Positions 18,546-53,871 of a stretch of 64,000 bases of DNA are shown here, in pieces. Location of the stretch: NCBI RefSeq assembly GCF_000515335.1, contig NZ_KI911563.1, positions 1,690,056 through 1,754,055 on the forward strand, read 5' to 3'. The stretch's first letter is position 1. Each line of letters begins with the position of its first letter. The notes below the pieces were generated by a model. That model was not told where the DNA came from. It ran no database searches and saw nothing but the letters and a program-made list of their open reading frames with translations. The position numbers and the translations under genes were made by a program. The DNA comes from Cohnella panacarvi Gsoil 349 (GTDB lineage: Bacteria; Bacillota; Bacilli; Paenibacillales; Paenibacillaceae).

Positions 18546-18546
18546 G

Positions 18547-24833: not shown

Positions 24834-25215
24834 TTTCGCAACCTCCTTTGTTCCGCCCAGGTTAGGTTGAGATAAGCAGCGTTGGCGGCGGTTAATCCTT
24901 TTGACGCAGGTTCGATACGTTTTGTTTCTCAATAAGCAAAAATATGGGCAAAATGAGACGAAGTGTAACAACTTGTCCATGGGTTCATGCGGAGAAGGAG
25001 CAAGCTATTGCGATAGTTTGAAAGTTTGTGGATGTTCATCTCATTTGGGCATTTCAGGTGTAGCGGGACTTCAGTCGGAAGATGATCTTACGGAGTATCG
25101 AGGTAGCTCGAAGGTTAGTGGTGTTTCGGCGCGTTACGGTCTCTCAGACCGCTAGGGCGTCGCGATCTCGCTATCTGTATCTGCACCGTGCAGCGGTCTC
25201 TCAGACCGCTACAAC
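24834..25215. other. Intergenic region upstream of the SLH gene
   Basis: About 380 bp. It holds the SLH gene leader and two identical 17-nt palindromic repeats (25137-25153 and 25192-25210). I see no convincing gene and no clear consensus promoter. Confidence 0.5.
25137..25210. repeat. Two copies of a 17-nt palindromic repeat
   Basis: CGGTCTCTCAGACCGCT occurs at 25137-25153 and again at 25194-25210, the latter extended to AGCGGTCTCTCAGACCGCT. Each can form an AGCGGTCT/AGACCGCT hairpin with a 3-nt CTC loop. Neither copy has a T-tract. Confidence 0.65.
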
Positions 25216-33822: not shown

Positions 33823-34875
33823 TTAAAGGTCATTTTGACCTCTATTTCGGCTTCACGCGGGAGCGGCTTCTCGCGGGAGCGGCTTCTCGCGGGATCAGTT
33901 ACTTTTAAAGGTCATTTCGACCTCTATTTCGGCATCATGCGGGATCAGTTACTTTTAAAGGTCATTTTGACCTCTATTGCGACTTCTCGCGGGATCAGTT
34001 ACTTTTAAAGGTCATTTTGACCTCTATTTCGGCATCATGCGGGATCAGTTACTTTTAAAGGTCATTTTGACCTCTATTTCGGCATCACGCGGGATCAGTT
34101 ACTTTTAAAGGTCATTTTGACCTCTATTGCGACTTCTCGCGGGACCAGTTACTTTTAAAGGTCATTTTGACCTCTATTGCGACTTCTCGCGGGAACAGTC
34201 ACTTTTAAAGGTCATTTTGACCTCTATTTCGGCATCACGCGGGATCAGTTACTTTTAAAGGTCATTTTGACCTCTATTTCGGCATCACGCGGGACCAGTT
34301 ACTTTTAAAGGTCATTTTGACCTCTATTGCGACTTCTCGCGGGACCAGTTACTTTTAAAGGTCATTTTGACCTCTATTTCGGCATCACGCGGGATCAGTT
34401 ACTTTTAAAGGTCATTTTGACCTCTATTGCGACTTCTCGCGGGAACAGTCACTTTTAAAGGTCATTTTGACCTCTATTTCGGCATCACGCGGGAACAGTT
34501 ACTTTTAAAGGTCATTTTGACCTCTATTGCGACTTTTCGCGGGAACAGTTACTTTTAAAGGTCATTTCGACCTCTATTTCGGCATCACGCGGGGACAGTC
34601 ACTTTTAAAGGTCATTTTGACCTCTATTTCGGCATCACGCGGGACCAGTTGCTTTTAAAGGTCGTTTCGACCTCTATTTCGGCTTCACGCGGGATCAGTT
34701 ACTTTTAAAGGTCATTTTGACCTCTATTTCGGCATCACGCGGGATCAGTTACTTTTAAAGGTCATTTTGACCTCTATTGCGACTTCTCGCGGGATCAGTC
34801 ACTTTTAAAGGTCATTTTGACCTCTATTGCGACTTCTCGCGGGAAAAGTTACTTTTAAAGGTCATTTTGACCTCT
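33823..34875. repeat. Tandem array A: 21 units, 50-bp period, each with an AGGTCA/TGACCT dyad
   Basis: The dyad AAAGGTCATTTTGACCTCT occurs 21 times. The first copy starts near 33825. Copies 2-21 (middle decamers at 33911, 33961, ... 34861) are spaced exactly 50 bp apart. The linker has two alternating subtypes: TTTCGGCATCACGCGGG (12 units, minor variants) and TTGCGACTTCTCGCGGG (8 units), followed by A(T/C/A)CAGT(T/C)ACTTTT. The first unit has two extra 16-bp insertions of AGCGGCTTCTCGCGGG. Copy 17 reads GGTCGTTTCGACC, where both arms have changed together and pairing is kept. The array fills the divergent gap between the Gfo/Idh/MocA gene and the plus-strand operon at 35022. There are no unique spacers, so it is not CRISPR. 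Confidence 0.95.
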
Positions 34876-35021
34876 GCAGCAACGCCCCCGTTAGCACGTC
34901 CTTTAATTACAATCTTTAAAATTGCAACATTTTGTACCCATGGGCGTTCAATATACGTTATCCTTAACAGAGCTTTAACCTCTTGAAGCAAAACAAACAG
35001 AAAGGTGCACGCCAACGAACC
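34876..35021. other. Leader between array A and the next operon
   Basis: This 146-bp AT-richer segment after the last repeat should hold the promoter of the 35022 gene. TTGCAA, TATACG and similar elements occur, but I see no well-spaced consensus pair. Confidence 0.35.
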
Positions 35022-35456
35022 ATGAGAACGACGGAATTACAACCAGCAGTCGCAACCGATGCGTATCGCCAGACCGCGCCTAGAAAGCGCAATTCTTCGG
35101 CAATCTTATTTTTCATCCTCCTATGGGTATTATTGATCGCATGCGGAGTCGCCGGGGCCAAGTGGTATTCCGACCGCATTCAGAACCAAGTGTCCGACCG
35201 ATTGGAGACGCAGACCGCTGCGCAAATCGCCCGAATGCAGCAAGAGTACGACGCGCGAATGACGCAGCTCGAAACCGGCTACAAAGCGCAGCTCGCCCAG
35301 CTGGAGAGCAAGATCGAGACGCTTAACGAGCTGCTTACCTTTACGAAAGACAACGCGGATACGAAGACGGACAACAGCAATAAGCTGTACACGCAGCTGG
35401 CCGAGGTGAAGAAGCAGCTCGCCGAGCTGAAGAAGAACCTGGACGTGCTCCGATGA
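35022..35456 (+). CDS. Single-pass membrane coiled-coil protein
   Basis: The 144-aa protein starts MRTTELQPAVATDAYRQTAP. Residues about 25-46 form a transmembrane helix (SAILFFILLWVLLIACGVAG). A long extracytoplasmic coiled coil extends to the C-terminus (MQQEYDARMTQLETGYKAQL, KKQLAELKKNLDVL). The stop overlaps the start of the phosphodiester glycosidase gene (ATGA), so the two are translationally coupled and may form a membrane complex. The Shine-Dalgarno is weak (AAAGGTG, 14 nt away), and a TTG start at 34983 is possible. Not a family I recognise. Confidence 0.68.
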   Translation: MRTTELQPAVATDAYRQTAPRKRNSSAILFFILLWVLLIACGVAGAKWYSDRIQNQVSDRLETQTAAQIARMQQEYDARMTQLETGYKAQLAQLESKIETLNELLTFTKDNADTKTDNSNKLYTQLAEVKKQLAELKKNLDVLR

Positions 35457-36529
35457 GCGCGGCTTTCGCCCGCGGGCTTAACCGTACGATGCTGCTCGCG
35501 TGCGCGCCCTTCGTCGGTCTGTTCGTCTGGCTTGCGATCGGCAGCGTGAACGTCGGCTTGACGAACGACGCATTCCCGCAAGTTGCCGCCGGCAACGGCA
35601 ATCCGGCGGCCGCAACCGCCGCGGCGCTGAACGGGCTCGCGCAAGCCGAGACGTCCGCCGAAATCACCGGGCAGATGATCAAGCGGCAACTCAAGCTTTA
35701 CAACCGGACGAACGCCGACATGAAGACGATCGCAAGCTTAGCGAGTTCGCAAGCGGCGCGTCCATACCTCATCTACGACAAGCGCATCACGGGCAAGCTC
35801 GGGAAACCCGCAACCACGATCGATTCGGACAAGCTGCGCGCGCAGCTATTCTATATGAACAACGGAAACTTCCGCAGTTACGCGCTCAAGGTCAAGCTCA
35901 AGAACAAGGACGCCATGAAGCTCGTGCTGGCCGGCGATCAACCGGGCAAGTCGGAGACCACGTTAAGCGCCGTCAAGCGCAACAAGGCCGCGGTCGGCGT
36001 GAACGCCGGCGGATTCGCGGACGGCCGCGGCGGAAGATATCCGCTAAGCACGACGATCGTGGACGGCGAGTACGTCGGCGGTTTCGAGGCGAGCTATAAA
36101 GACCTGTTCTTCGTCGGTCTTAGCGAGAGCAACAAGCTGATCGGAGGTAAATTCCGCAGCCGCTCCCAGCTCGACGCCCTCAAGCCGAAGTTCGGCGCCT
36201 CCTTCGTGCCGATCCTGCTGGACAACGGCAAGAAGACGGCGATACCGGCCAAGTGGCAGACCAGTCCCAAGCGGGCGCCGAGAACGGTCATCGGCAGCTA
36301 CAAGGACGACCAGCTGCTGTTCGTCGTCGCCGACGGCTACAACGAGCGGGGCAGCTCCGGCGCGACGCTCGAGGAAATGCAGTCGATGCTGAAAAGCTTC
36401 GGCGCGATCGACGGCTATAACCTGGACGGCGGCGGCTCGTCTACGCTCGTCTTTAACGGACGCGTCATCAACAGCCCTTCGGACGGCCGGCTTCGCAAGC
36501 TGCCGACGAACTTCGTCTTTTTCAAATAA
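35453..36529 (+). CDS. Phosphodiester glycosidase (NAGPA-domain) membrane-anchored protein
   Basis: The 358-aa protein has an N-terminal membrane anchor (MLLACAPFVGLFVWLAIGSV), an Ala/Asn-rich linker, then a NAGPA-like domain (about 110-358) with VGVNAGGFAD, the recurring RTVIGSYKDDQLLFVVADGY, and the family hallmark GYNLDGGGSSTLVFNG near the C-terminus. This domain cleaves or transfers sugar phosphodiesters; bacterial members are linked to extracellular polysaccharide or wall glycopolymers. It is coupled to the coiled-coil protein upstream. A second NAGPA protein lies 3 kb away. Confidence 0.9.
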   Translation: MSAAFARGLNRTMLLACAPFVGLFVWLAIGSVNVGLTNDAFPQVAAGNGNPAAATAAALNGLAQAETSAEITGQMIKRQLKLYNRTNADMKTIASLASSQAARPYLIYDKRITGKLGKPATTIDSDKLRAQLFYMNNGNFRSYALKVKLKNKDAMKLVLAGDQPGKSETTLSAVKRNKAAVGVNAGGFADGRGGRYPLSTTIVDGEYVGGFEASYKDLFFVGLSESNKLIGGKFRSRSQLDALKPKFGASFVPILLDNGKKTAIPAKWQTSPKRAPRTVIGSYKDDQLLFVVADGYNERGSSGATLEEMQSMLKSFGAIDGYNLDGGGSSTLVFNGRVINSPSDGRLRKLPTNFVFFK

Positions 36530-36533
36530 TAGT

Positions 36534-36588
36534 AAAGGCTGTCTGCCTTGACGGGGTGCGCTTCAACCCTCGGGCAAACAGCCTTTTC
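36534..36588. terminator. Terminator after the phosphodiester glycosidase
   Basis: AAAGGCTGTCTGCC and GGGCAAACAGCCTTTT form a long imperfect stem ending in TTTTCGC on the plus strand. It lies between converging genes, so it may serve both. Confidence 0.78.
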
Positions 36589-36594
36589 GCTTCG

Positions 36595-37623
36595 TTAATC
36601 GATAAATTCCACTTGATAGCCTCTATGCTCAAGCTCCTCTACCAAGCCGTGTTCTCCGACCATGTGCAGCGATCCGACGGCGAATAAATACGTTCCCGCT
36701 TCGCCTTCGCTCAAGTAACGGTCGATTTTCTCCACCATGCCGATATTCCGGTTCACTAGAAACTCTCTGTCGAACTCGTCGAACAAGTCTCCCATCGTCT
36801 TGCTGCCTTCTTCGAGATAAGAATCATGCATTTTCTCCAGTATTCTAACGTCTCCGATCGTCCACATATCCAGCATCTGCTTCATCCCGATCGACGCCAG
36901 CCCCGCTCCTTTCACCGTTTGGTGAAAATAGTTCTCCTGAAGCTCGTCCGTAAAGCCGTCGAATATGCCCAACTGCGAATCGACGCTCTCCAGCTCGATG
37001 ATCGTTTTCCCGTTCTCGTGCGCTTCCTTCGCGAGGTGGAGGTCTATGCCGTCGGCTTCTTTATATTTCGTCGCCGGCAATGCTTCAAGCGTCATGGCGC
37101 CGTACCATGGCTCGTACTTGTCGAACGCGCTTGCGCCGACGATGCCCAGCGACTTCTTCATCAGTTGCTTGAACTTCTCGTAATCTTCCTCGGACACGTG
37201 ATCCTTGAGCTCCGTCCCGTCCGCGAGCAGCGCTTTCTCCGCCACAAGCTTCGCCATCGCCAGTTGATCGACCGTCGTTAAGTCCAGCTCCAACCCGATA
37301 TAATCCGAATCCGCGACCGCACGCTTGAGATCTTCGTCGAGCGGGTACATTCCCTTCCTCGCCACATGGATCGTACCGACCAAGTAACCCGAATTCTCGC
37401 CGCCCGTCACGCGCCACAGAAAACCTTTGGAGCCCGGCTTTTGCGGTTCGCCTTCGGCTGCCGGCACGGACGGCGATTCCGCCTCCGCAGACGCGATGAC
37501 CGTAGAGGAGACCGGCTCCGCGCCCTCACCCGGCTGCGAATCGTCGTTCGACGAAGAGCCGCAAGCCGCCAACAACGCCAACAGCAGTAACCCTGCAATG
37601 CCCGTTATAGATCTTTGTCTCAA
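36595..37623 (-). CDS. TraB/GumN-family lipoprotein
   Basis: 342 aa, starting at a TTG 8 nt after GGGGGA. Signal peptide with lipobox LAAC (residues 18-21), then a Ser/Glu/Pro-rich spacer, then the TraB/GumN domain: SGYLVGTIHVARKGMYPLDE, IGLELDLTTVDQ, YGAMTLEALPATKY, GKTIIELESVDSQLGIFDGF and the C-terminal GTYLFAVGSLHMVGEHGLVE with conserved GSLH. The family is proposed to be a metal-dependent protease-like (Tiki-type) fold. It is expected on the outer face of the membrane. Confidence 0.9.
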   Translation of the reverse strand: MRQRSITGIAGLLLLALLAACGSSSNDDSQPGEGAEPVSSTVIASAEAESPSVPAAEGEPQKPGSKGFLWRVTGGENSGYLVGTIHVARKGMYPLDEDLKRAVADSDYIGLELDLTTVDQLAMAKLVAEKALLADGTELKDHVSEEDYEKFKQLMKKSLGIVGASAFDKYEPWYGAMTLEALPATKYKEADGIDLHLAKEAHENGKTIIELESVDSQLGIFDGFTDELQENYFHQTVKGAGLASIGMKQMLDMWTIGDVRILEKMHDSYLEEGSKTMGDLFDEFDREFLVNRNIGMVEKIDRYLSEGEAGTYLFAVGSLHMVGEHGLVEELEHRGYQVEFID

Positions 37624-37788
37624 ACCCGTAATCCCCCGCTTCGATTAGATTGAGGCCGCTTTCCGCTCGACATTTCCCGGGGAATACCGACAGTCTAATG
37701 CTCGATCCCGGTTGTAGTAACGTATACGCATAATTCAGAAGAGAGGTTCATAGACTTCATCATCTAGCAATTTCTAAGAGGTGAGCGT

Positions 37789-38130
37789 ATGCGCCAAGAG
37801 AGATTGATGCTCTATTGCCAATTGAAAGAAGAACAGAAACGAATCGAAGACGCCCTAGATACGCTTCGCGAGGAAATTATCGCCGCCTATGCTTCGGACG
37901 CGGAATTCCATCTGCACAATTACACGCTCAAAATCATCTACCAGGAGAAAAGAGTGTACGACGACAAGCTCGTGTTCTCGGCGCTTCCCGATCCCGAGCT
38001 ATGGAAAGCGGTGTGCAAGACGGACCCGTCCAAAATCGCCGCGCTCGTCAAGACGAACGTGCTCCCGGAGCGACTGCTCGAAGGGACGTACCGGACGACG
38101 AGGACCGCTTACTTATACGTGCAACCGTAA
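37789..38130 (+). CDS. Conserved-looking hypothetical protein, 113 aa
   Basis: ATG after a good AGAGGTGA site. The N-terminal helix (LYCQLKEEQKRIEDALDTLR) is followed by a mixed region (FHLHNYTLKIIYQEKRVYDD, LPDPELWKAVCKTDPSKIAA) ending LEGTYRTTRTAYLYVQ. The pattern of a charged helix, then a strand, then LW...DP.KI..L resembles phage/Gam-like or DUF2800-type helper proteins, but I do not recognise the family. It converges on hprK with a 2-nt gap and no clear terminator. Confidence 0.65.
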   Translation: MRQERLMLYCQLKEEQKRIEDALDTLREEIIAAYASDAEFHLHNYTLKIIYQEKRVYDDKLVFSALPDPELWKAVCKTDPSKIAALVKTNVLPERLLEGTYRTTRTAYLYVQP

Positions 38131-38132
38131 CG

Positions 38133-39068
38133 TTAACCGCCGCTGCCCATCTCTTCCTCGATCCGTTTCATGAACTCCTCCGCCGCGCTGTAGCCTTGCT
38201 GTTTCAAATACCAGTTGTTAGCGGCCGCCTCGATCATGCCGGCGACGTCCCGCCCCGGTTGCAGCTGGATCTCGATATAAGGAACCTTCACGCCCATATA
38301 TTCCGAGAACTTCTGCTCCAGCTCCAAGTCGTTGTTGAGCGCGTTGTCCTGCCACGGCGCGAGCTCGATGTCAAGCACGATGCGGGACTCGTCCTGGAAC
38401 GCTTTGCGTCCGTAAAGGCGGACGACGTTCACGAGTCCGATGCTGCGCAGCGCGAGAAATTCGCGCGTCGTCTCGTTATGCGTGCCGAGCAGCGTCTGCG
38501 AGCTTAGCTTCTTCAGCACGACGACGTCGTCGGCGACGAGCCGGTGGCCGCGGCGGATGAGCGTATGCGCGGTTTCGCTCTTGCCGATGCCGGACTTGCC
38601 GCGCAGCAGGATGCCGATTCCCGATACGTTAAGGCAGACGCCGTGAACGGCGATTTCGGGCGCCAATTGTTTCAAGAGATAATGGTCCAGTTTTCCTACG
38701 AATTCAGTCGTATTGTCTTTCGTCCGCAACAGCGGAATGCCTTCTTGCTGGCAGTAGAGGAGCAAATACTTCAATCCCTTATATTCCTGATTCGACGTCA
38801 CGATGAAGCAGGGGGGATGATATTTAACGACGTTGCCGATATGCAAATTTCGTTCTTCTTCGCTTAACGTATGTAAATAGCTGATTTCTTTGCGCCCAAG
38901 CACCTGAACCCGTTCCATCGGAAAAAAGTCGAAATAACCGACGAATTCGAGGCCCGGCCGATGCGATCTCGCCTTCGTGATGACGCGATCGAGCCGATCC
39001 CCGCCGGACAGAATCTCCAGCTTGAAATGCTCCTGCAAGCTTTGAACCGTAATCGACTTCGATTTCAT
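38133..39068 (-). CDS. hprK: HPr kinase/phosphorylase
   Basis: The 311-aa bifunctional enzyme phosphorylates and dephosphorylates HPr on Ser46, controlling CcpA-dependent catabolite repression. Visible motifs: P-loop GKSGIGKSET (157-166), the upstream catalytic-type VHG (about 142), RRGHRLVADDVV, and the HprK signature REFLALRSIGLVNVVRLYG followed by VLDIELAPW. GGAGGGG precedes the ATG. In many Bacilli hprK is followed by lgt; here the downstream gene converges, so that linkage is absent. Confidence 0.97.
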   Translation of the reverse strand: MKSKSITVQSLQEHFKLEILSGGDRLDRVITKARSHRPGLEFVGYFDFFPMERVQVLGRKEISYLHTLSEEERNLHIGNVVKYHPPCFIVTSNQEYKGLKYLLLYCQQEGIPLLRTKDNTTEFVGKLDHYLLKQLAPEIAVHGVCLNVSGIGILLRGKSGIGKSETAHTLIRRGHRLVADDVVVLKKLSSQTLLGTHNETTREFLALRSIGLVNVVRLYGRKAFQDESRIVLDIELAPWQDNALNNDLELEQKFSEYMGVKVPYIEIQLQPGRDVAGMIEAAANNWYLKQQGYSAAEEFMKRIEEEMGSGG

Positions 39069-39141
39069 CGTGTTCCCCTCCGCGTTACCTTGCTTTTATC
39101 CACTTCTTATTTTCACCGAACCTCCGCGTAATTCCTGCCTG

Positions 39142-39951
39142 TCAGTCCACGCCGATCATCTGAACGACCGGTCTTCCGTCGCCCATCAGCTTCGCTTCGC
39201 GCGCCAGCAATTGCGAGGAGCCGTCTCCGTCGAGGAAGATTCCGTCGATCAGACGGTTCGGGAGCGACTTGCCGTAGCTTTGAATCGTCTTTCGAAAGTC
39301 TTCCGCCGTGCACCCCATATTCGCGACGATCAAATACACGCCGTCCTCGGCATAGGCCATCGCGCTGCGCAGACGATTGTCGTCCGGCGCGGGGATCGCT
39401 TGCGTATCGGCTTGCATTCGCCAACCGGCATCATCCTGCAGATTGAGGCTGACGCCTCCTTGCGCCCAGTAGTCGGAGCGATCCGTCACGTTCAATTGAC
39501 TCGCGTCGCCGACGACCTGTACCGAGTACGCTTGCGTCCGTCCGTCGTACACGAGCGTTCCCCGGGCGTATTTGGCGTTGAACCAGCCCGACTCGCGCGC
39601 CCCGGGCTCCCCGCCGACGGGTACATCGTCCTGCACGGCGATGCTGAGCAACTGCTTTTCCCAGAAAAAACCGCCGTTCACGCCGACGATCCCTGATGCC
39701 GTAACGTTGTTGTCGATCCGGCGCAAGCGGATGTACTTCGGGTTCGTCTTAATGACTTGTAAAGTGATATCGTTGTCGGCGACATAGCTTTCATATTCGT
39801 AATTCGCGCTGGCCGGTTCGGGCGTCGCCGATTCCAGAAACGATAGATGCGTTAAGACGTAAATCCCGGACGCGATCAGGAAAAGAGCGATATACATGAT
39901 TTTGAATCGGAAGAAGTGCCTTGCCAGAACTTTAACCGTTGATGGCAACAT
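39142..39951 (-). CDS. Phosphodiester glycosidase (NAGPA-domain) protein, second copy
   Basis: The 269-aa protein has an N-terminal transmembrane anchor (IMYIALFLIASGIYVLTHLS) and then a NAGPA-like domain: GIVGVNGGFFWEKQLLSIAV, RSAMAYAEDGVYLIVANMG and the hallmark GIFLDGDGSSQLLA. It lacks the long linker of the 35453 gene and reads DGDGSS rather than DGGGSS. It sits between hprK and a YkuK-like gene, all on the minus strand. GGGGAAAATC precedes the ATG. A surface glycopolymer role is likely, by family. Confidence 0.86.
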   Translation of the reverse strand: MLPSTVKVLARHFFRFKIMYIALFLIASGIYVLTHLSFLESATPEPASANYEYESYVADNDITLQVIKTNPKYIRLRRIDNNVTASGIVGVNGGFFWEKQLLSIAVQDDVPVGGEPGARESGWFNAKYARGTLVYDGRTQAYSVQVVGDASQLNVTDRSDYWAQGGVSLNLQDDAGWRMQADTQAIPAPDDNRLRSAMAYAEDGVYLIVANMGCTAEDFRKTIQSYGKSLPNRLIDGIFLDGDGSSQLLAREAKLMGDGRPVVQMIGVD

Positions 39952-39975
39952 GATTTTCCCCTTACAAGACTCGGT

Positions 39976-40539
39976 TTAGTTTTTCGTATGCCGGTTCGCA
40001 TAGGACGAAGCCGCATAGGCGTCGGGCTTGACGCGCGGTTCGTATTTTCCCGTTACGGCCACCAGCCCGACCATCTCCTGCACGCACTCCGCGGTTTTAT
40101 TCACTTGCGGCACGGTACCGGCGTCGATGTCGATATATGCGAGCAGCGAAGCGGATGCTCCGGGCTTGCCGAATGGAACGGCCGGGTTCCGGCAGCCTCG
40201 GAGTTCAGCCGGATCGAAGCGCCTCGCCACTTCCAACGACAGTATCGTCTCTAGCATCAGCTTTTCGCGGATCGTTGTCAATTGTCTGGGAAATGAGAAT
40301 TGCCGATAACAGGCCCATGCGCCTTGGCCGAGCCGATGAATGACGACGCCCGTCGCGAACTTCGTATACCCGCGGTGCCCTTGGCTGTCGGTGCCGATGA
40401 TGAAATGGTAGCTCGCTTCCGGCGCGTCCGCCACGTACCTTGCGACGCGTTCGCGCACGTCTTCCAGGCGGAGCTCGCGCTCGGTTTGGTTCTGGAACGA
40501 GACGAGCGTAAGAGCGGCCAGGCTGTGAAACATGGTCAT
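39976..40539 (-). CDS. YkuK-like (DUF458, RNase H-like fold) protein
   Basis: 187 aa from the ATG at 40539, which has GGGGGTGA 5 nt upstream; an earlier in-frame ATG has no site. Family marks: YHFIIGTDSQGHRGYTKFAT (Asp of the RNase H-like first strand), VVIHRLGQGAWACYRQFSFP, ASLLAYIDIDAGTVPQVNKT and VGLVAVTGKYEPRVKPDAYA. Bacillus YkuK is a conserved cytoplasmic protein linked to stationary phase; its activity is unproven. Confidence 0.85.
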   Translation of the reverse strand: MTMFHSLAALTLVSFQNQTERELRLEDVRERVARYVADAPEASYHFIIGTDSQGHRGYTKFATGVVIHRLGQGAWACYRQFSFPRQLTTIREKLMLETILSLEVARRFDPAELRGCRNPAVPFGKPGASASLLAYIDIDAGTVPQVNKTAECVQEMVGLVAVTGKYEPRVKPDAYAASSYANRHTKN

Positions 40540-40721
40540 GCGAATCACCCCCTTCATCTTGCGGGCTAAGCGCGGGATTGTTCTATTGTATGACGGATGC
40601 CGCTCGGCTCATTTTTGTTATTCCGGGTTGCAACCAAATTGAACCATTATGCGTCAATGATTGTAATCGCAAACAAATCGAGGCATGAAGCAGTCACTTA
40701 TTGTCCTGGGGGGATATAATC

Positions 40722-43271: not shown

Positions 43272-43282
43272 CTTTGCTTAGC

Positions 43283-43319
43283 ACCGCCCCACAGTCGTTG
43301 AGACTATGGGGCGGTTTTT
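43283..43319 (+). terminator. Terminator of the beta-propeller gene
   Basis: ACCGCCCCA and TGGGGCGGT form a 9-bp stem followed by TTTTC, 11 nt after the stop. Confidence 0.88.
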
Positions 43320-43427
43320 CGTTGGGCCGGCGTTATCCCTTTGGCTCAGGATTTGTTTCCTGTCCGAAGTTAGTCGCCCTAACCGACTCATTCTCCCCAG
43401 TACCCGTCCCGTGCCCGCATCTATGGC

Positions 43428-43457
43428 TTGGACTCTCCTTATGGAAGGGACTATAAT
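43428..43457 (+). promoter_or_regulatory. Probable sigma-A promoter of mqnBD
   Basis: TTGGAC (43428-43433), 18-nt spacer and consensus TATAAT (43452-43457), 45 nt upstream of the mqnB ATG. Confidence 0.6.
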
Positions 43458-43501
43458 GAGGTAAGTTGAACGCACGGAATAGAAGGAGAGACGAGGAGCA
43501 C

Positions 43502-44988: not shown

Positions 44989-44994
44989 ACGAAG

Positions 44995-45042
44995 AACACC
45001 GCCCCCTGTTTCGTCGAATGCGACGGTAGGGTAGGCGGTGTT
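44995..45042. terminator. Bidirectional terminator after mqnD
   Basis: AACACCGCC (44995-45003) pairs perfectly with GGCGGTGTT (45034-45042) between converging genes. Inner ACGGTAGGGT further shapes the loop. The T-tract is short. Confidence 0.75.
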
Positions 45043-45047
45043 GTATA

Positions 45048-45698
45048 TTACATGACCATATCCAGCAATATCCCCGTCATGGACAGGCGCAAGCCCGCAT
45101 GCAGTCTGGGCGGATACCCCGGTTTCAGTTTCGTGTCGAAAAGTTTATCGTTCAACAGCTGGCTAACCGGAACGCCGATATATCGATTGGTCGCTTCCTT
45201 CAACGCGGCAGGCAGCCCGCGGCCGTCGCTCAGCGCTTCCAGCGCCTGAGCTTCGTTGCCCCCGAACCGCTCGCGAAACGCATCTTCGTCCAGCTCCAGG
45301 CTTCCGTCTTCCGCGAGGCGAACGCCGAGTCGATCGTATTCGCTCGCCTCGACTTGCAGCTCTATACCGCCCGGAACATTCGGACTCAAGAACGTGCCCG
45401 CGTCCTTCATTTGCTCGCGAAGGTTGTTATAGGACAATACGATCTTGCGCACGTAATCGATCGCGGATTCGTCCTCGGAATCGTCTTCCGACGCTGCCCG
45501 ATTAGCATCCTGCATGGCGAATAGCACATTGACGATGCCGATCGCCGCCGATCTGGCTCTGCGGTCGAAGATTTTCGAGGGGACTCCTCTTCTTGCGCCG
45601 GGGCGATAACGGGTTTCCGCCCATTGGTCGAACGGAAATTGGGCGTATGTCGGCATAACCCGAGATGCACGAACAACGCGTTCGGTAGACGGAACCAT
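45048..45698 (-). CDS. Hypothetical protein with flagellar-cap-like C-terminal pattern
   Basis: 216 aa from the ATG at 45698 (AAAGGGG, 6-nt spacing). An N-terminal basic region (RRGVPSKIFDRRARSAAIGI) is followed by a central helix (AIDYVRKIVLSYNNLREQMK) and YDRLGVRLAEDGSLELDEDA, then FRERFGGNEAQALEALSDGR. The L-G--L--DG-L-LDE--F---F motif is also seen at the C-terminus of flagellar cap protein FliD, but the rest is different and no flagellar genes are nearby. I would not assign a function. Confidence 0.68.
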   Translation of the reverse strand: MVPSTERVVRASRVMPTYAQFPFDQWAETRYRPGARRGVPSKIFDRRARSAAIGIVNVLFAMQDANRAASEDDSEDESAIDYVRKIVLSYNNLREQMKDAGTFLSPNVPGGIELQVEASEYDRLGVRLAEDGSLELDEDAFRERFGGNEAQALEALSDGRGLPAALKEATNRYIGVPVSQLLNDKLFDTKLKPGYPPRLHAGLRLSMTGILLDMVM

Positions 45699-45769
45699 AG
45701 GATCGCCCCTTTGCATTGGATTATTTTAACTATAACACGCCTTGGCGGATTTCCGCGACCCTTGCCCCG

Positions 45770-47785
45770 TTACTGTACCAGAGACACCTCCGGCAATATA
45801 AGCAAATATTGAATCGCCGCCAACTCCTGCTTCGTCAGAACCCTCTCCGAATGATAATCCGCCAAGCCGCCTTGCTTGGCGACTTCCGGTCCATGCAGCT
45901 CTAGATCGATGACTTGCTGTACCGCGGACTCCGCCCATTCGGACGTTCCGGGCGCAAGCACGGTGTTGCTCGGTTGAGGCGGGATGCCCGATACGACGAG
46001 CAATCTCGAGAGGATGACGGCTGCTTCCTCGCGCTTGATCGGAACGTCCGGACGGAACATCTGTCGGCCGGTCCCGTGAACCAGTCCGAGTTCCGCCGCC
46101 GTTTGAATTTCCGCGCGATACGGGGATTCCCCGATATCCTGGAATGCTGGCGCGTTGTTCGAGCCCGGGATTCCGAATTGCTTCATCAGCGCATGAATGA
46201 ACTGCCCTCTCGTAACCGTCTCCTCTACGCCGAATGCTCCGGATTCGTTAGCCTCCACGATGCCTAGATCGTGCAGGACGTTAATGTATTTTGCATAAGA
46301 ATGGCCTGCAGGAACGTCGGCGAACGGCTTCGCGCTCGCCACCTTCGAGGCATAGCTGCCCGGATTCGCGTAATTATACTTCATGTACTGTACGCGTCCT
46401 TCGCGGTCCAATTGGAACGCCATCGGCATGCCGTCCTCGTCGACGAACAGCGAATCGTCCACTTGCTTCAGCTCTCGACGAATGCCGGCCGAGTTGCCTG
46501 CCGAGAGCGTACCGTCGCCGACTACTCGCACGCTGTTAACCGCACCGACCCTCAGATCTTGGTAATGCCCTTCGAATTTGGCCAGCTCAGCGGCGGATTG
46601 TTCCTTGAACCCGGCGTCGCCCAGCTTCGACTGTCCGGGGAAGAAGCGGTCCATGAATTCGCTGAACAGCTCAATGGAAAGCGGCGAATTCGCGTTATAA
46701 GATACGAATACGCCCGTGCGGCGATCCGGCAGCATCCACAACAGCGATTCGAAACCGGTGATGCTGCCGCCTTTCATGATGACGTTATGCCCGTTGGCGT
46801 CCACGAACGGCCCCTCGAAGCCGTAAGTCGAGTCGAGTACGTCGGGATGGATCGCTTGATGGTAAGAGGACATCGCTTGGATTGATTCAGGCGATAAGAT
46901 CCGCTTGCCGTCGGCGGTCGTCCCGCCTCCTAAGTAAGCAAGCATGAATTTGCTCATATCCTCGGCGGTCGTAAGCATGCTGCCCTCCGGTATCACGTCG
47001 GGGGATAGCCGGTAGACGGGTACCGCCGCGCCGGTCGGGTCATAGACCGTCGGCGTCTCGGCAAGCAGTCGATCCTCTTGCAAGAAGCTGCTGGAATCCA
47101 TGCCGAGCGGTCCGAAAATATGTTGCCGCATATAGTCGTTGAAGCTTTGTCCGCTCGCCTGCTGAACGATATAGCCCGCAAGCCCGTAGGCGAAGTTGTC
47201 GTACATATAGGAAGTGCCCGGTTCTCTTGCGACGGGCGGAAAGTTCGCGACGATCGCTTCTTTGAGCGCGACCGGTTGTTGCGCCGGATCGAAGAGGATA
47301 TTGGCAGCCGTCGGATCCCTGACCTCAAAGCCCGTCGTATGGGTGAGCAGCATGGCGACGGTGACCGGTTGAGCGAACGGATTGTCAACCTTGTAACCGT
47401 CCAAATACTTCTCGATATTGTCTTCTAACGAGACCTTGCCTTGCTCGACTAACTGCATAAGAGCAGCCGCCGTGAATACTTTCGACACGGAACCGACTCG
47501 GAACGTCGTTCTCGTCGGATCGACGGCTTGCTTCGTTTCGCGGTTCGTCACGCCATAGCCTCGGGCAACGACGACTTGTCCGTCCTTCACGACGGCTACG
47601 GCCGCGGCCCCGGCTTGCGCGATCGCTTCCGGCCTCGAGAAAAATTCGTCCATAAAGCCGAGCGCCTCCCGGGCGTCCGTCTCGACGGCCGCCGAGACTG
47701 GCTTGGCGAGCGCCAAGCTCCATAGCGGCGTGCTCAGCGCGATGGACAACGCTAGCAAATAAGCCGTCGTTCGTTTCTTTGCCAT
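45770..47785 (-). CDS. S-layer-anchored serine hydrolase (class C beta-lactamase/penicillin-binding fold)
   Basis: 671 aa from the ATG at 47785 (GGAGG, 9-nt spacing). A signal peptide of about 33 residues is followed by a beta-lactamase-related domain: SxxK as SVSK (99-102, nucleophile S99), YMYDNFAYGLAGYIV (Y-x-N), GLGLMG-like VIMKGGSITGFESL (K-G/T-G-type block). A linker leads to about three SLH repeats at the C-terminus (FADVPAGHSYAKYINVLHDL, FQDIGESPYRAEIQTAAELG, RRQMFRPDVPIKREEAAVIL). It is likely an esterase or D-aminopeptidase/carboxypeptidase displayed on the wall. Confidence 0.93.
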   Translation of the reverse strand: MAKKRTTAYLLALSIALSTPLWSLALAKPVSAAVETDAREALGFMDEFFSRPEAIAQAGAAAVAVVKDGQVVVARGYGVTNRETKQAVDPTRTTFRVGSVSKVFTAAALMQLVEQGKVSLEDNIEKYLDGYKVDNPFAQPVTVAMLLTHTTGFEVRDPTAANILFDPAQQPVALKEAIVANFPPVAREPGTSYMYDNFAYGLAGYIVQQASGQSFNDYMRQHIFGPLGMDSSSFLQEDRLLAETPTVYDPTGAAVPVYRLSPDVIPEGSMLTTAEDMSKFMLAYLGGGTTADGKRILSPESIQAMSSYHQAIHPDVLDSTYGFEGPFVDANGHNVIMKGGSITGFESLLWMLPDRRTGVFVSYNANSPLSIELFSEFMDRFFPGQSKLGDAGFKEQSAAELAKFEGHYQDLRVGAVNSVRVVGDGTLSAGNSAGIRRELKQVDDSLFVDEDGMPMAFQLDREGRVQYMKYNYANPGSYASKVASAKPFADVPAGHSYAKYINVLHDLGIVEANESGAFGVEETVTRGQFIHALMKQFGIPGSNNAPAFQDIGESPYRAEIQTAAELGLVHGTGRQMFRPDVPIKREEAAVILSRLLVVSGIPPQPSNTVLAPGTSEWAESAVQQVIDLELHGPEVAKQGGLADYHSERVLTKQELAAIQYLLILPEVSLVQ

Positions 47786-47839
47786 GATTCGTAACCTCCG
47801 CATCCTTCTTCTCGTCTCTCGCTTGCACGTTGATTGTAA

Positions 47840-48174
47840 CAAAGGATACCCATCCAAATAATGGACCTAAGTCCAGTCTATAGACGAACGAAAGTAGGAT
47901 TGCTTCGACGGCAAAGGCGTTCACCCGGTCACCGTTGATGTTCGTTGCTCTCGGTTTTAGCAACATGCGATCCCGCTCAAGGAGGCCTCGAAGCTCCAGG
48001 CCGTAGATTTGCGCGGGTTGCCGTTGCACGAACCGGCCTCTGGCGGACGTCCGCTTAGCCCGCATGAATCCGAGTCGGCCGTTTCGTCTTTCGTCGGCGC
48101 GCCGCCCGGATCGCCCGTCCCATCGCGAGGCCAGCCTGTCCGCCGCCGATAATGAGAACTTCCTTCCGAATCAT
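47840..48174 (-). pseudogene. Decayed flavin-containing monooxygenase (CzcO-like)
   Basis: From an ATG at 48174 with a good AGGAAGGTGA site, the frame reads MIRKEVLIIGGGQAGLAMGR, a textbook FAD Rossmann N-terminus, but stops after 39 codons (48055). In a different frame (about 48038-47840) the same strand reads GRFVQRQPAQIYGLELRGLL then LLKPRATNINGDRV and YRLDLGPLFGW. This matches the later part of NAD(P)/FAD monooxygenases, in which R-GRFV...GLELR-L and a late ATGYRPDY block are typical. The middle (probably over 150 codons) is missing, so this is a deleted and frameshifted remnant. Confidence 0.72.
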
Positions 48175-48481
48175 CGGGTTCACCTTCCTCTAATCGTTTA
48201 GTCCCTTCATAATAGGACGAAAATAACGCTCGGACGCAAAAATCTTGCGCGCCCGCGCAAATTTTGGCATCAGGAAGATATTGCGGCGGCTTTTGAAGCA
48301 TAATGTAGAAAGCCGTTCGGGAACCGTGGAGTGCACGCTATGAATGATCTATAAATTAGATCGTTATCATGTTTAATCATCATTTTTATATCTGACTCGA
48401 AAGCGTTAGAATAAATCTGAAGAGCAGCGCCGATTGCGGCGCAATACTAGGTAATCCAACATGAACATAGAGGGATGCGGA

Positions 48482-51352
48482 ATGTCAGAATTCAAAGCAA
48501 ACTCGCAAGGACAATGGCAGCAATTTTATGGTCCCAATCTCGGTTATATCCAAGAGCAATACGAAATTTATTCGAACGATCCCGAAGCGGTAAGCAAAGC
48601 CTATCGCGACTTGTTCGCGGCTTTGGGCGCCCCGCCGCGCTCCGAGGCGCTGGAAGCGGCGGCGGAAGCACGCGTATCATCCGGGACGCTGGATACGGGT
48701 TCGCTCAAGAAAGCGATTGCCGCCGGACAGCTGGCCTGGAACATCCGCGCGTTCGGACATTTAGCGGCGGACATCGATCCGCTTGAGCTTAATATGAAAG
48801 CTAGCGCGAATATGATCGAACCTTCGACTTACGGGTTAACGGAAGCCGATCTTCGCGGCCTGCCTCCGGAGTGCGTATGGGAAGACGCTCCGTATGCGCT
48901 GGCGAACAGCTGGGAAGCGTACCGCAAGCTGCTTGAAGCTTATACCGGACCGATCGCGTTCGAATTCGGCCACGTGCATAACGAAGAAGAGATCAAATGG
49001 CTGAAGAAGCAAGCGGAATCGAAGATTCCTTCCAAGAAGCTTCTCGCGTCCGAGAAGGAAGCTTTGCTTAGAAAGCTGCTGGAAGCCGAGCAATTCGAAG
49101 ATTTCCTGCAACGCACGTTCGTCGGACAGAAGCGATTCTCCGTCGAAGGCAACGAAGCGCTCATCCCGCTGTTAGACGAAATCGTTCACGAGCTCATTAA
49201 CGACGGCGCGCGCAACATCGTCATGGGGATGGCGCACCGCGGCCGCTTGAACGTGCTTGCTCACGTATTAGGCAAGCCGTACGGCAATATTTTCTCCGAG
49301 TTCCATCATTCGCCGAACAAGAACCTGATCCCGTCCGAAGGCTCGATCGGCATCAATTACGGCTGGACGGGCGACGTCAAATATCACTTAGGCGCGAATC
49401 GTTCGATTCAAACCGGCGAAACGGCGGAAACCCGCCTTACGATGGCGAACAACCCGAGCCACTTGGAATACGTGAACCCGGTCGTTGCCGGCTTTGCCCG
49501 CGCCGCTCAGGACGATCGCTCCGAGCCGGGCTTCCCGACGCAGAACTTCGATTCTGCCGCGTCCATCATCATGCACGGCGACGCCGCGTTCTCCGGCGAA
49601 GGCATCGTCGCGGAGACGCTCAACTTCAATAACCTTCGCGGTTATTCTAACGGCGGCACGGTCCACATTATCGTCAACAACCGGATCGGCTTCACGACGG
49701 AAAGCTTCGATTCCCGCTCGACGCATTACTCGAGCGACGTGGCCAAAGGCTACGAAATTCCGATCATTCACGTCAACGCCGACGAACCGGAAGCGGTCAT
49801 CGCGGCTGCGCGTATGGCAAGCACATACCGCACGCTTTTCAAAAAAGACTTCGTCATCGACCTCATCGGCTACCGCCGCTATGGCCATAACGAGACGGAT
49901 GATCCGGAAACGACGCAGCCGCTTATTTATAAGAAAGTTAAAGCACACTCGCCGGTTGCCAAGCTTTACGCGGACAAACTCGTTCGCGAAGGCACGCTGA
50001 CCGCGGAAGCCGCGGAAGCGATCAAACAAGACGTGCTTCGCAAGCTCAAAGCCGCTTACGATCAAGTGAAGAGCCAAGAGCATAAAGATCCCGTCCATCA
50101 GACGCAACCGGACGCGAACGCGTTGGCAAGCAAGCCGGTAACGGCCGTTAAAGCCGATACGCTTCGCAAAATCAACAAGGGATTGCTTTCCTTCCCTGAA
50201 AGCTTCACCGTCTATCCGAAGCTGCAGCGTATACTCGAGCGTCGCTCAGACGCGCTTAACGACGGGGAGAAAGTCGACTGGGGCCACGCGGAGACGCTGG
50301 CGTTCGCCTCGATTCTCGCCGACGGCACGCCGATCCGACTGAGCGGCCAAGACGTGGAGCGAGCGACGTTCGCGCACCGCAACCTTGTCCTGCACGACCC
50401 GGTTACGGGCGAAGTGTTCTGCCCGCTGCACGAGCTGCCGGAATCGAAAGCTTCGTTCGCCATCCACAACAGTCCGTTGTCGGAAGCCGGCGTACTCGGT
50501 TTCGAATACGGGTACAACGTGTACGCGCCGGAAACGATGACGATCTGGGAAGCGCAATACGGCGACTTCGTTAACGTCGCCCAAGTGCTGATCGACCAAT
50601 TCATCTCCGCCGGACGTTCGAAGTGGCAGCAGCGCTCCGGCCTGGTCATGCTCCTTCCGCACGGCTACGAAGGCCAAGGGCCCGAGCATTCCAGCGCGCG
50701 TATGGAACGGTTCCTGCAGCTTTGCGGAGAAGAGAACTGGACGGTCGCATACTTGTCCAGCGCGGCGCAGTACTTCCACCTGCTCCGCCACCAAGCGGCG
50801 ATCTTGAATACCGAAGCGGCTCGCCCGCTCGTCGTCATGGCGCCGAAGAGCTTGATCCGCAACCCGCACGTCGCTTCGCCGGCGTCGGCGCTGAGCGAAG
50901 GTTCGTTCCAGCCCGTTCTCGAGCAACCGGGCCTCGGCCAACATACGAAGCGCGTTCAACGGCTCGTTCTGTGCACGGGTAAAGTCGCGATCGACCTGGC
51001 CGACGAGCTTACGAAAAACACCGATGCGGACCGCGATTGGTTGCACGTCGTTCGCGTCGAGCAGCTGTATCCGTTCCCGAAGGCGGAGCTTCAAGCGATC
51101 ATCGACCGCTATCCGGAGCTGAACGAGATCGTCTGGGCTCAGGAAGAGCCGAAAAATATGGGCGCATGGTTCTACATGGAGCCGCGCATTCGCGAGATCG
51201 CTCCGGCGGAAGCGACGGTCAGCTATATCGGACGGCCGGAACGCTCCAGCCCGGCAAGCGGCTTCCAGCAAGTACACGTCCTCGAACAGCAATATATCGT
51301 CACGCAAGCGCTCGTCCAAAAAAAGAAAAGCGTTGTTAAATCCGGGAGGTAA
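48482..51352 (+). CDS. odhA: 2-oxoglutarate dehydrogenase E1 component
   Basis: About 956 aa from the ATG at 48482 (GAGGGA, 6-nt spacing; an ATG at 48461 lacks a site). The thiamine-diphosphate enzyme of the TCA cycle has the SucA N-terminal arm (QFYGPNLGYIQEQYEIYSND), FLQRTFVGQKRFSVEGNEAL, VMGMAHRGRLNVLAHVLGK, the TPP motif GDAAFSGEGIVAETLNFNNL, IGYRRYGHNETDDP, and the transketolase-like C-terminal half (FEYGYNVYAPETMTIWEAQY, GDFVNVAQVLIDQF; LPHGYEGQGPEHSSARMERF). It forms the standard odhAB operon with odhB. E3 is not in the window. Confidence 0.97.
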   Translation: MSEFKANSQGQWQQFYGPNLGYIQEQYEIYSNDPEAVSKAYRDLFAALGAPPRSEALEAAAEARVSSGTLDTGSLKKAIAAGQLAWNIRAFGHLAADIDPLELNMKASANMIEPSTYGLTEADLRGLPPECVWEDAPYALANSWEAYRKLLEAYTGPIAFEFGHVHNEEEIKWLKKQAESKIPSKKLLASEKEALLRKLLEAEQFEDFLQRTFVGQKRFSVEGNEALIPLLDEIVHELINDGARNIVMGMAHRGRLNVLAHVLGKPYGNIFSEFHHSPNKNLIPSEGSIGINYGWTGDVKYHLGANRSIQTGETAETRLTMANNPSHLEYVNPVVAGFARAAQDDRSEPGFPTQNFDSAASIIMHGDAAFSGEGIVAETLNFNNLRGYSNGGTVHIIVNNRIGFTTESFDSRSTHYSSDVAKGYEIPIIHVNADEPEAVIAAARMASTYRTLFKKDFVIDLIGYRRYGHNETDDPETTQPLIYKKVKAHSPVAKLYADKLVREGTLTAEAAEAIKQDVLRKLKAAYDQVKSQEHKDPVHQTQPDANALASKPVTAVKADTLRKINKGLLSFPESFTVYPKLQRILERRSDALNDGEKVDWGHAETLAFASILADGTPIRLSGQDVERATFAHRNLVLHDPVTGEVFCPLHELPESKASFAIHNSPLSEAGVLGFEYGYNVYAPETMTIWEAQYGDFVNVAQVLIDQFISAGRSKWQQRSGLVMLLPHGYEGQGPEHSSARMERFLQLCGEENWTVAYLSSAAQYFHLLRHQAAILNTEAARPLVVMAPKSLIRNPHVASPASALSEGSFQPVLEQPGLGQHTKRVQRLVLCTGKVAIDLADELTKNTDADRDWLHVVRVEQLYPFPKAELQAIIDRYPELNEIVWAQEEPKNMGAWFYMEPRIREIAPAEATVSYIGRPERSSPASGFQQVHVLEQQYIVTQALVQKKKSVVKSGR

Positions 51353-51358
51353 CTTCGA

Positions 51359-52597
51359 ATGCATGACATTATCGTTCCAGCAATGGGTGAATCCATCACG
51401 GAAGGCACGATCTCCAAATGGATCGTTCAAGTAGGAGACGCCGTTAAACAAGGTGACTTGCTGCTAGAGCTGGAGACCGACAAAGTAAACTTGGAAATCA
51501 GCGCCGAACAGGATGGCGTCGTTACCGCTATTCTGGCTAAAGAAGGCGATACCGTTAAAATCGGCGAAACCGTCGGCACGATCGGAGCCGCTGGCGCGGC
51601 TCCGGCAGTTGCTCCGGCAGCGCCGCCTGCAGCGGTTGCCCCTCCGGCGGCAGCCGCTGCGCCTGCTCCTTCGGCTGCACCGGCGCCCGCTGCGTCGGCT
51701 GGCCAGACGCTCGCTTCGCCGGCCGCACGCAAGCTTGCCCGCGAGCAAGGCATCGACCTGAGCAGCGTACCGGCGCGCGATCCGATCGGCCGCATCACTC
51801 CTGCCGACGTGAAATCCGCAGGCAACGCGCCTGCTCCGGCAGCGCAAGCTGCGCCTAGCCCGGCGTCGGACAAGACCGCGACGGCCAACTACGCGAAACC
51901 GGAAGAGCGCCGCAAGATGTCCCGCCGCCGCATGACGATCGCGAAGCGTCTCGTCGAAGCGCAGCAGACGGCCGCGATGCTGACGACGTTCAACGAAGTC
52001 GACATGTCCGCCATCATGGAAATCCGCAAACGCCGCAAAGACTCGTTCAAAGAAAAGCACGACGTCGGCCTCGGTTTCATGTCCTTCTTCACGAAAGCGG
52101 TCGTCGGCGCCCTTAAGGCGTTCCCTCTGCTTAACGCGGAAATTAGCGGCGACGATATCATCGTCAAGAAGTACTACGACATCGGCATCGCCGTATCGGC
52201 CAAAGAAGGCTTGGTCGTACCGGTCGTTCGCGAGGCCGACCGCCTAGGCTTCGCTGAAATCGAGCGCACTATCGTGAACCTCGCGACCAAAGCGCGCAGC
52301 AACACGCTCGAACTGTCCGAGCTTCAAGGAGGCACGTTCACGATCACGAACGGCGGCACGTTCGGCTCGCTGCTCTCGACGCCGATCCTGAACGCTCCGC
52401 AAGTCGGCATTCTCGGCATGCACAAGATCCAGCTTCGTCCGGTCGCGATCGACGCGGAGCGGATGGAGAACCGCCCGATGATGTACATCGCCCTCTCCTA
52501 CGACCACCGTATCGTCGACGGCGCCGAAGCCGTGCAATTCCTCGTCAAAGTCAAGGAAATGCTCGAAGATCCGGAAACGCTGCTTCTTGAAGGCTAA
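51359..52597 (+). CDS. odhB: Dihydrolipoyllysine succinyltransferase (E2 of 2-oxoglutarate dehydrogenase)
   Basis: The 412-aa protein has an N-terminal lipoyl domain with the modified Lys about 42 in [10 protein letters not shown] long Ala/Pro-rich flexible linker leads to a peripheral-subunit-binding domain ([20 protein letters not shown]), a second linker, and the catalytic domain ([20 protein letters not shown]; active-site His about 383 and Asp about 387 in [12 protein letters not shown]). GGGAGG precedes the ATG, 6 nt after odhA ends. Confidence 0.97.
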
Positions 52598-52609
52598 TTT
52601 GTTCCTTAC

Positions 52610-52653
52610 GCGCCGCTGTAACGGTATAAGATACCGCTGCAGCGGCGCTTTTT
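52610..52653 (+). terminator. Terminator of odhAB
   Basis: GCGCCGCTG (52610-52618) and CAGCGGCGC (52640-52648), with inner ACGGTAT/ATACCG, form a strong stem followed by TTTTTC. Confidence 0.9.
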
Positions 52654-52700
52654 CGTGTTTCCTCGGGGATAAATCCCCCATTTCCCGCGTCCCCCCCACC

Positions 52701-53871
52701 TAGAGGTCACATCGACCTCTAATTCCCCGATTTCGCACAAACCACTCACCTAGAGGTCAAATCGCCCTCTAAATCCCCGATTTCCCGCAAACCATCCACC
52801 TAGAGGTCAAATCGACCCCTAAATCCCCGTTTTCCTGCAAACCATCCACCTAGAGGTCAAATCGCCCTCTAAATCCCCCATTTCCCGCAAACCATCCACC
52901 TAGAGGTCAAATCGCCCTCTAAATCCCCCATTTCCCGCAAACCATCCACCTAGAGGTCAAATCGACCCCTAAATCCCCGATTTCCCGCAAACCATCCACC
53001 TAGAGGTCACATCGACCTCTAAATCCCCGATTTCCCGCAAACCATCCACCTAGAGGTCACATCGACCTCTAAATCCCCGATTTCCCGCAAACCATCCAAC
53101 TAGAGGTCAAATCGCCCTCTAAATCCCCGTTTTCCCGCGAATCCCCCACATAGAGGTCAAATCGCCCTCTAAATCCCCGATTTCCCGCAAACCATCCACC
53201 TAGAGGTCAAATCGACCCCTAAATCCCCGATTTCCCGCAAACCATCCACATAGAGGTCAAATCGCCCTCTAAATCCCCGTTTTCCCGCGAATCCCCCACC
53301 TAGAGGTCAAATCGACCCCTAAATCCCTGATTTCCCGCAAACCATCCACCTAGAGGTCAAATCGACCCCTAAATCCCCGATTTCCCGCGTTTCCCCCACC
53401 TAGAGGTCAAATCGCCCTCTAAATCCCCGTTTTCCCGCAAACCATCCACATAGAGGTCAAATCGCCCTCTAAATCCCCCATTTCCCGCAAACCATCCACC
53501 TAGAGGTCACATCGACCTCTAAATCCCCGATTTCCCGCAAACCATCCACCTAGAGGTCAAATCGCCCTCTAAATCCCCGATTTCCCGCAAACCATCCACC
53601 TAGAGGTCAAATCGACCCCTAAATCCCCGATTTCCCGCAAACCATCCACATAGAGGTCAAATCGACCTCTAAATCCCCGATTTCTCGCAAACCATCCACC
53701 TAGAGGTCAAATCGACCCCTAAATCCCCGATTTCCCGCGTTTCCCCCACCTAGAGGTCAAATCGCCCTCTAAATCCCCGATTTCCCGCAAACCATCCACC
53801 TAGAGGTCAAATCGACCCCTAAATCCCCGATTTCCCGCAAACCATCCACATAGAGGTCAAATCACCCTCTA
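52701..53871. repeat. Tandem array B: 24 units, exact 50-bp period, GAGGTC/GACCTC dyad
   Basis: Each unit begins TAGAGGTCAAATCG, then an eight-base right arm, AAATCCCCGATTTCCCGC and AAACCATCCACC. Units start at 52701, 52751 and every 50 bp to 53851. The left arm TAGAGGTC is identical in all 24. The right arm is CGCCCTCT in 10 units, CGACCCCT in 8, CGACCTCT (the perfect complement) in 5 and CACCCTCT in 1. So the hairpin is fully intact in only five units (1, 7, 8, 17, 20). The array lies between the odhAB terminator and a terminator of the opposing gene, that is, in convergent space. There are no unique spacers, so it is not CRISPR. Confidence 0.95.

Follow-up and report, generated by a model that had tools for sequence, protein, structure and literature searches.

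We analyzed a 64,000-nucleotide stretch of the genome of Cohnella panacarvi Gsoil 349 (contig NZ_KI911563.1, positions 1,690,056 to 1,754,055), here called the window, in which two tandem arrays, A and B, repeat a 21-bp dyad at a period of 50 bp. The genome around the window is complete (4.77 Mb). Below, G numbers denote genomes and L numbers loci, G000 being the genome that holds the window. The dyads and the neighboring genes, the latter given as context only, are as follows:

33824..34876, minus strand: array A, 21 dyads TAAAGGTC-N5-GACCTCTA (plus-strand reading) with a period of 50 bp, between two divergent genes
33848..33894, no strand assigned: 16-bp piece CGGCTTCTCGCGGGAG, about three copies within the first gap of array A
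52670..53871 (dyads 52701-53871), plus strand: array B, 24 dyads TAGAGGTCAAATCG(A/C)CC(T/C)CTA with a period of 50 bp, between convergent genes and downstream of odhB
25134..25211, no strand assigned: two related dyads standing alone, with cores GGTCTCTCAGACC and the flanks TTAC..GCTA and CAGC..GCTA, spacing 57 bp, an off-phase exception
32724..33716, minus strand: GFO/IDH/MocA oxidoreductase gene, left of array A
34983..35456, plus strand: open reading frame (ORF) right of array A, with matches below curated cut-offs only
35453-36529: phosphodiester glycosidase (NAGPA) gene, after that ORF
48461..51352, plus strand: 2-oxoglutarate dehydrogenase E1 gene
51359..52597, plus strand: odhB, 2-oxoacid dehydrogenase acyltransferase gene, upstream of array B and followed by a terminator-like hairpin (by eye)

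The arrays belong to a large set in Cohnella that is apparently so far undescribed. A preliminary description of the window had suggested that the system could be new, and we found no account of such arrays in the literature titles and abstract openings searched, with most subscription journals outside reach. It had also pointed to a shared design and a common geometry in A and B; across the set, this geometry proved to be held independently of sequence.

Tandem Repeats Finder (TRF) recovered both arrays at period 50: A spans 33880-34875, with 19.9 copies and 91% matches, and B spans 52670-53871, with 24.0 copies and 89% matches. The units quoted earlier, with 11 or 12 nt to (C)GCGGGA, agree with the sequence, and the repeat is not due to chance, as the two strands of the genome together contain AGGTCN5GACCTCTA 93 times and the reversed control not once. 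The first dyad of array A, at 33824, is followed by a gap of 82 bp instead of 50 because the 16-bp piece is repeated there. All 21 dyads of A retain the GGTC-N5-GACC core; in B, 13 of 24 dyads keep it, while the right side of the dyad reads GCCC in ten and ACCC in one. The opposite orientation reported for the two arrays holds for their spacers, whereas the dyad itself is nearly symmetric and gives no direction. A protein-coding repeat (17 amino acids, 51 nt) was rejected, since the period of 50 in A and B shifts the frame with each unit.

Six arrays in the C. panacarvi genome, A and B among them, share the 21-bp dyad TA(G/A)AGGTC-N5-GACCTCTA. They lie at approximately 0.161, 1.031, 1.199, 1.724 (A), 1.743 (B) and 3.311 Mb, have periods of 50 or 51 bp and each carry a private spacer that is homogeneous within the array; a single repeat family that expanded only twice is not supported. 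The hexamer GCGGGA, previously taken as a shared family element, occurs 21 times in A and 21 times in B and is absent from both strands of the other four arrays, which rules it out as part of the motif; the profile suggested earlier, GGTC-N5-GACCTCTA plus GCGGGA, would miss nearly all arrays. Further arrays, which the preliminary description expected, were found in large numbers in the same genome and its relatives.

Across 37 Cohnella genomes including this one, the strict dyad TANNGGTCN5GACCNNTA occurs 167 times in G032, 83 in G000, 37 in G019, 32 in G024, seven in G031 and four in G023, with zero to two matches in the others. Scanning genome contigs for the GGTC dyad returned 66 stretches from Cohnella (C. 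terricola, C. phaseoli and three more) and one Thermobacillus, and additionally matched three Desulfocapsaceae contigs from two metagenome-assembled genomes and one Chloroflexi contig. When loci were compared for relatedness of arms and spacers, omitting those judged unrelated or duplicate, the dyad arms varied across species yet remained largely complementary (TAACGGTC/GACCGTTA, TAGAGGTC/GACCTCTA and TAGCGGTC/GACCGCTA). Single dyads as regulator sites were rejected: of 11 apparent singles in G019 and G024, ten became pairs or short arrays under relaxed criteria, and only L304 stayed single. Arrays with period 51 were also seen elsewhere in the family, in genera g15 and g16 (L184 18828-19254 and L222 12412-12900; G302 and G321), the g15 array having the dyad GGTC-N5-GACC with unsymmetric flanks.

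A second core, TARCGGCA-N5-TGCCGYTA, is abundant in G005 (189 matches), G010 (187), G015 (83), G000 (81) and G026 (80), with zero or one match for reversed-pattern controls. It is built like the GGTC core, and so are further cores. The dominant core differs by species, and array-rich species have one or two, as would be expected if arrays follow a reader of drifting specificity. Of two Thermobacillus genomes, one carries GGTC and the other (G392) GGCA, and spacings alternate between about 52 and 62-63 bp in both. Lone GGCA pairs 50-51 bp apart were noted in genera g2, g8 and g11 (G048:C1:3141801, G247:C32:156615 and G282:C45:13584), which gave no further match in the same search.

The earlier proposal had counted many unrelated periods and cores as evidence against it; cores and spacers do vary widely, whereas the periods are dominated by one class. 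Period 50-52 was the commonest tandem array class in random 20-kb stretches of Cohnella, with 14 arrays in 800 kb from 13 genomes, two of these arrays being weak (2.3 copies; 73% matches), versus two arrays in the same length (800 kb) from the family's other genera. Six of the 14 fell in 440 kb of the C. panacarvi genome, a density equivalent to ~65 arrays in one genome (95% range 24-142). When 123 unique tandem arrays from Cohnella DNA, partly selected by dyad, were sorted by period, 64 fell into this class and no other single period exceeded five; counts of this class omit arrays with 40-42-, 44-, 46-, 55- and 77-bp units and CRISPR (clustered regularly interspaced short palindromic repeats) repeats. 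An odd-centered dyad with at least six of eight arm positions paired was present in 50 of 67 unique period 50-52 arrays (including the two from g15 and g16) versus 17% of shuffled units, and 11 of the 25 such dyads outside the GGTC core bore TA at both outer ends (2.2% in shuffles). Even-centered dyads showed no enrichment in the arrays.

Two further Cohnella repeat groups were noted. In C. panacarvi, seemingly interrelated arrays with periods of 40-42 bp (L202 12274-12617, L207 5601-5839 and L209 11576-12074) may form a class of about four helical turns. Another family, built around CCCCTTCGNNCAGG, has periods of 44, 46, 55 and 77 bp, which are not whole turns, and occurs at L141, L142, L146, L136, L147 (downstream of odhB) and L241 (downstream of hemL).

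Neighboring dyads are mostly 50-52 bp apart, or 62-64. The constant spacing is not due to copying alone. We collected 33 spacers unlike any other in their own array, omitting duplicate and unrelated loci: 26 measured 50-52 bp, four 62-64 bp and one 41 bp, so that 31 of 33 fit, the misfits being 57 and 66 bp. Eleven of these are lone pairs without a second spacer for comparison; 21 of the other 22 fit. L310 has four dyads and three unrelated spacers at distances of 51, 50 and 50 bp, and four-dyad elements in L013 (same place as L086) and L301 show spacings of about five, six and five turns. Pairs of the GGCA core were sought at any distance from 43 to 66 bp; of the 76 forward-strand pairs counted by hand among the matches listed, about ten per genome at most, 71 stood at 50-53 bp and five at 62-64 bp.

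Length is also conserved where spacers are related. In 53 arrays (at least four dyads passing the mismatch limit; Thermobacillus and duplicate loci excluded), 374 spacings contained 641 distinct spacer substitutions versus seven cases of altered length (by 8 bp at most), in addition to one 10-bp change and three double gaps. Insertions and deletions usually make up a much higher share of changes. Within arrays, variants per position numbered 3-16 in the dyad arms, 20-29 in the center and 21 on average in the spacer. Furthermore, A/T content in spacers peaks in phase with the dyad center at one fifth of the unit (~10.2 bp) in 57 of 58 arrays (z 13.5; 78 array rows reduced to 58 by similarity). 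In 33 arrays without the GGTC core, a set from which two arrays one step away from it were excluded, the 10.2-bp power was 0.764 versus 0.248 in shuffles (z 12), and it stood about z 7 above array-free intergenic windows (0.336, s.d. 0.060, maximum 0.536, 300 samples).

Most sampled arrays are intergenic and free of predicted genes; the predicted ORFs that overlap L153 (4216), L169 and L171 we presume to be false calls. Among 72 arrays, the flanking genes are codirectional in 32, convergent in 19 and divergent in four, array A being among the few of the last kind; 17 could not be typed. Compared with background gaps of at least 100 bp (153 codirectional, 32 convergent and 56 divergent), convergent gaps are enriched among the 55 typed arrays (P = 0.0005, an approximate value given the simple gene caller). 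At the position of array B, downstream of odhB, eight of 30 Cohnella genomes have a period 50-52 array, with differing sequences. Similar frequencies were seen for the control gene hemL (six of 30; none in C. panacarvi) and for a third gene, of S-layer type (three of 15), which rules out orthologous retention at odhB and indicates a general frequency at gene ends combined with fast turnover.

Outside the family Paenibacillaceae, dyad pairs lie in or beside an HTH_36 or replication-initiation gene at 13 of 17 loci (13 viral and four genomic). Each of the 13 viral contigs holds a pair of dyads, spaced 21-59 bp for the GGTC core or 21-66 bp for the GGCA core. Ten of these clusters (L318-L321, L323, L324, L326 and L328-L330) are in, overlap or abut an ORF with a Pfam HTH_36 or PHROGs replication-initiation match; L318, L321 and L330 fall below the HTH_36 cut-off and are called from PHROGs. 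Some are kin, L323, L324 and L326 being close relatives and L319 and L320 likewise. L322, L325 and L327 gave neither match, and L322, counted as an initiator locus by eye, was dropped because a profile built without it does not find it. The commonest phage spacing was 22 bp, or two turns (ten of 33). A phage origin of the arrays was rejected: no viral contig has two GGTC dyads 43-59 bp apart, though GGCA pairs at 43-66 bp occur in five.

Searching 13,691 ORFs of all other loci with a phage-initiator profile ranked three Desulfocapsaceae loci with the GGTC core at the top. Their HTH_36 gene (E ~4e-13) ends 95 bp before the dyads, or 10 bp in L028 if a less perfect dyad is included, and conjugation-type genes were recognized by eye in its surroundings. 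The three proteins are near-identical and represent one lineage. This gene and its dyads would offer a compact natural protein-site pair for biochemistry. In the element itself (L028, L048 and L090), four to six dyads follow the gene at spacings of 31-32 and 57 bp, with 86 bp to the outlying sixth (L028). The Chloroflexi pair (L052) had no initiator match in this search, and the three best Cohnella matches examined were GntR-type regulators.

We consider it somewhat short of an even bet (probability roughly 0.45) that the arrays serve as same-face landing platforms on which a dimeric protein binds DNA sequence-specifically, the likeliest candidate being a winged-helix protein of the HTH_36 replication-initiator type. 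A phased binding lattice is suggested because spacing is kept with unrelated spacers, A/T runs are phased to the dyad and the dominant core differs between genomes. Each 21-bp dyad (8-bp arms, 5-bp center and often TA outer ends) would take one dimer. With dyads whole helical turns apart (about four, five or six, mostly five at 50-52 bp) and A/T runs between them in phase, bound dimers would align on one face of the helix and the DNA could bend smoothly around them, leaving the sequence between dyads free to change. Arrays, mostly downstream of at least one gene and in excess between convergent genes, would grow by local tandem copying, homogenize within a locus, arise and vanish often and track a reader whose specificity drifts between species. 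The geometry, phasing, spread, intergenic position and species-specific cores of the arrays are observed, as is the association of these cores with HTH_36 or initiator genes in other organisms; protein binding, the identity of the reader in Cohnella, bending and any benefit we infer. Among the alternatives in the preliminary description, a geometry maintained in common by one binding protein fits best. Genus-wide conservation of helical distance more than of sequence would amount to a natural experiment in protein-DNA lattices, and a domesticated or hostile replication initiator as reader would imply a new chromosome-organizing system or a new immunity by binding-site decoys.

Known systems were compared with this proposal. 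Like the iterons of initiators (lambda O type and HTH_36 phages or plasmids), which are short repeated sites often at helical spacing, the arrays repeat sites at such spacing, and dyads with the same cores stand in or beside initiator genes in phages and the Desulfocapsaceae element, an association specific for GGCA only. In contrast to iterons, the Cohnella arrays number in the dozens and are dispersed over the chromosome at gene ends, with sites mostly 51 bp apart rather than 22, and no initiator gene adjoins them in the loci examined. Resemblance to CRISPR consists in a ~21-bp repeat alternating with ~30 bp and in the few arrays with all-different spacers, such as L310; in most Cohnella arrays, however, the spacers are near-identical, and the dyad center is variable, unlike the unique spacers and constant repeats of CRISPR.

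Several observations weigh against landing platforms read by an HTH_36-type protein. The 58 arrays of the phasing analysis retain spacers of remote common origin, A/T is in phase with the best dyad in only 21 of the 33 non-GGTC arrays (z 4.1), and a tandem array shows only periods that divide its unit, so that the value of 10.2 bp cannot serve as an independent estimate. The core is damaged in 11 of 24 dyads in array B, the pair at 25134 is spaced 57 bp, and repeats with other periods (46, 55 and 77 bp) also lie downstream of odhB in Cohnella. Among phages, 20 of 33 spacings are not 21-22 bp, and related initiators serve phages of unrelated hosts. At a matched range of 25-55 bp, GGCA pairs occur in seven viral contigs, GGTC in only one (L325, without an initiator ORF) and four other cores in none, so viral specificity holds for GGCA only; the GTTG core of two C. 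panacarvi arrays had no viral match. Finally, the ORFs of the examined Cohnella loci, whole genomes not having been searched, include neither an HTH_36 gene next to an array nor a close relative of the phage initiators.

The best surviving competitor, which we regard as unlikely, is that these are plain minisatellites from replication slippage: a palindrome would stall the polymerase, a ~51-bp duplication would expand and template switching would keep the arms complementary, without any protein reader. Bacterial minisatellites (variable number tandem repeats such as mycobacterial interspersed repetitive units) resemble these arrays in being tandem and intergenic and in their unit length of about 50 bp. 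Slippage predicts the homogeneity of most arrays inside and their difference between loci, and it fits the fast turnover that leaves different arrays downstream of the same gene across species. Unlike minisatellites, however, arrays of differing sequence share one period, contain a dyad and hold their distance without repeated spacers; slippage also leaves the A/T phasing and the genome-wide reuse of one core with other spacers unexplained and predicts no preference for 51 bp.

Less likely still are architectural sites for a general nucleoid factor or a topoisomerase, akin to the bacterial interspersed mosaic elements (BIMEs) that bind gyrase at gene ends. The excess of convergent gaps (19:32:4 convergent, codirectional and divergent versus 32:153:56 in the background) favors such sites, and 10-bp A/T phasing fits DNA wrapping; specific cores that differ between species are hard to reconcile with a universal factor.

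Somewhat more doubtful again, the arrays could be chromosomal decoys: when a phage or plasmid enters, they would capture its HTH_36-type initiator and so stop its replication, by titration or array pairing. The several dozen phased iteron-like arrays of Cohnella would then be the trap, and species-specific cores the record of an arms race. Plasmid-borne lambda iterons block initiation of lambda replication when oop is also transcribed (PMC3349717), a precedent for the decoy principle. Immunity through decoy arrays spread over a whole genome would, if true, be new.

Hairpin arrays in RNA, acting as attenuators or 3'-end stabilizers of transcripts, appear improbable. The dyads are foldable and arrays lie near gene 3' ends, but the window and ten array loci contain no Rfam match at gathering thresholds, on which ground a known structured RNA was rejected, array B is enclosed by two terminator-like hairpins (judged by eye), and a 10-bp phase belongs to double-helical DNA.

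Mobilization of repetitive extragenic palindromic (REP)-like or miniature inverted-repeat transposable elements by a Y1 transposase, either a REP-associated tyrosine transposase (RAYT) or IS200-type, is very improbable: the elements are dispersed, intergenic and palindromic, and a single Y1 match is present in each of the GGCA-rich genomes G010 and G015, but Y1_Tnp (PF01797) has no match in GGCA-rich G005 and G026. Among the five Cohnella genomes in which GGTC arrays are clear, it has none in G000, G019, G031 and G032 and only one fragment with a stop in the fifth, G024. A RAYT/REP identity was thus rejected for most array genomes. Palindromic, intergenic, present at many loci and near gene 3' ends, the Cohnella arrays do resemble REP and BIME sequences, from which they differ, besides this lack of Y1 matches, in their long tandem arrays, fixed helical spacing and 5-bp-centered 21-bp dyads.

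Two minor repeats were also noted. CRISPR-like arrays of the repeat type GTCGCATCC...GGATGCG(T)GGATTGAAAT, with a period of ~65-67 bp, occur at L040 5739-6228 (C. phaseoli) and L249 622-1261 (G035). Within the window, a 41-bp sequence is present twice at 18464-18547; it is open in several frames and probably coding.

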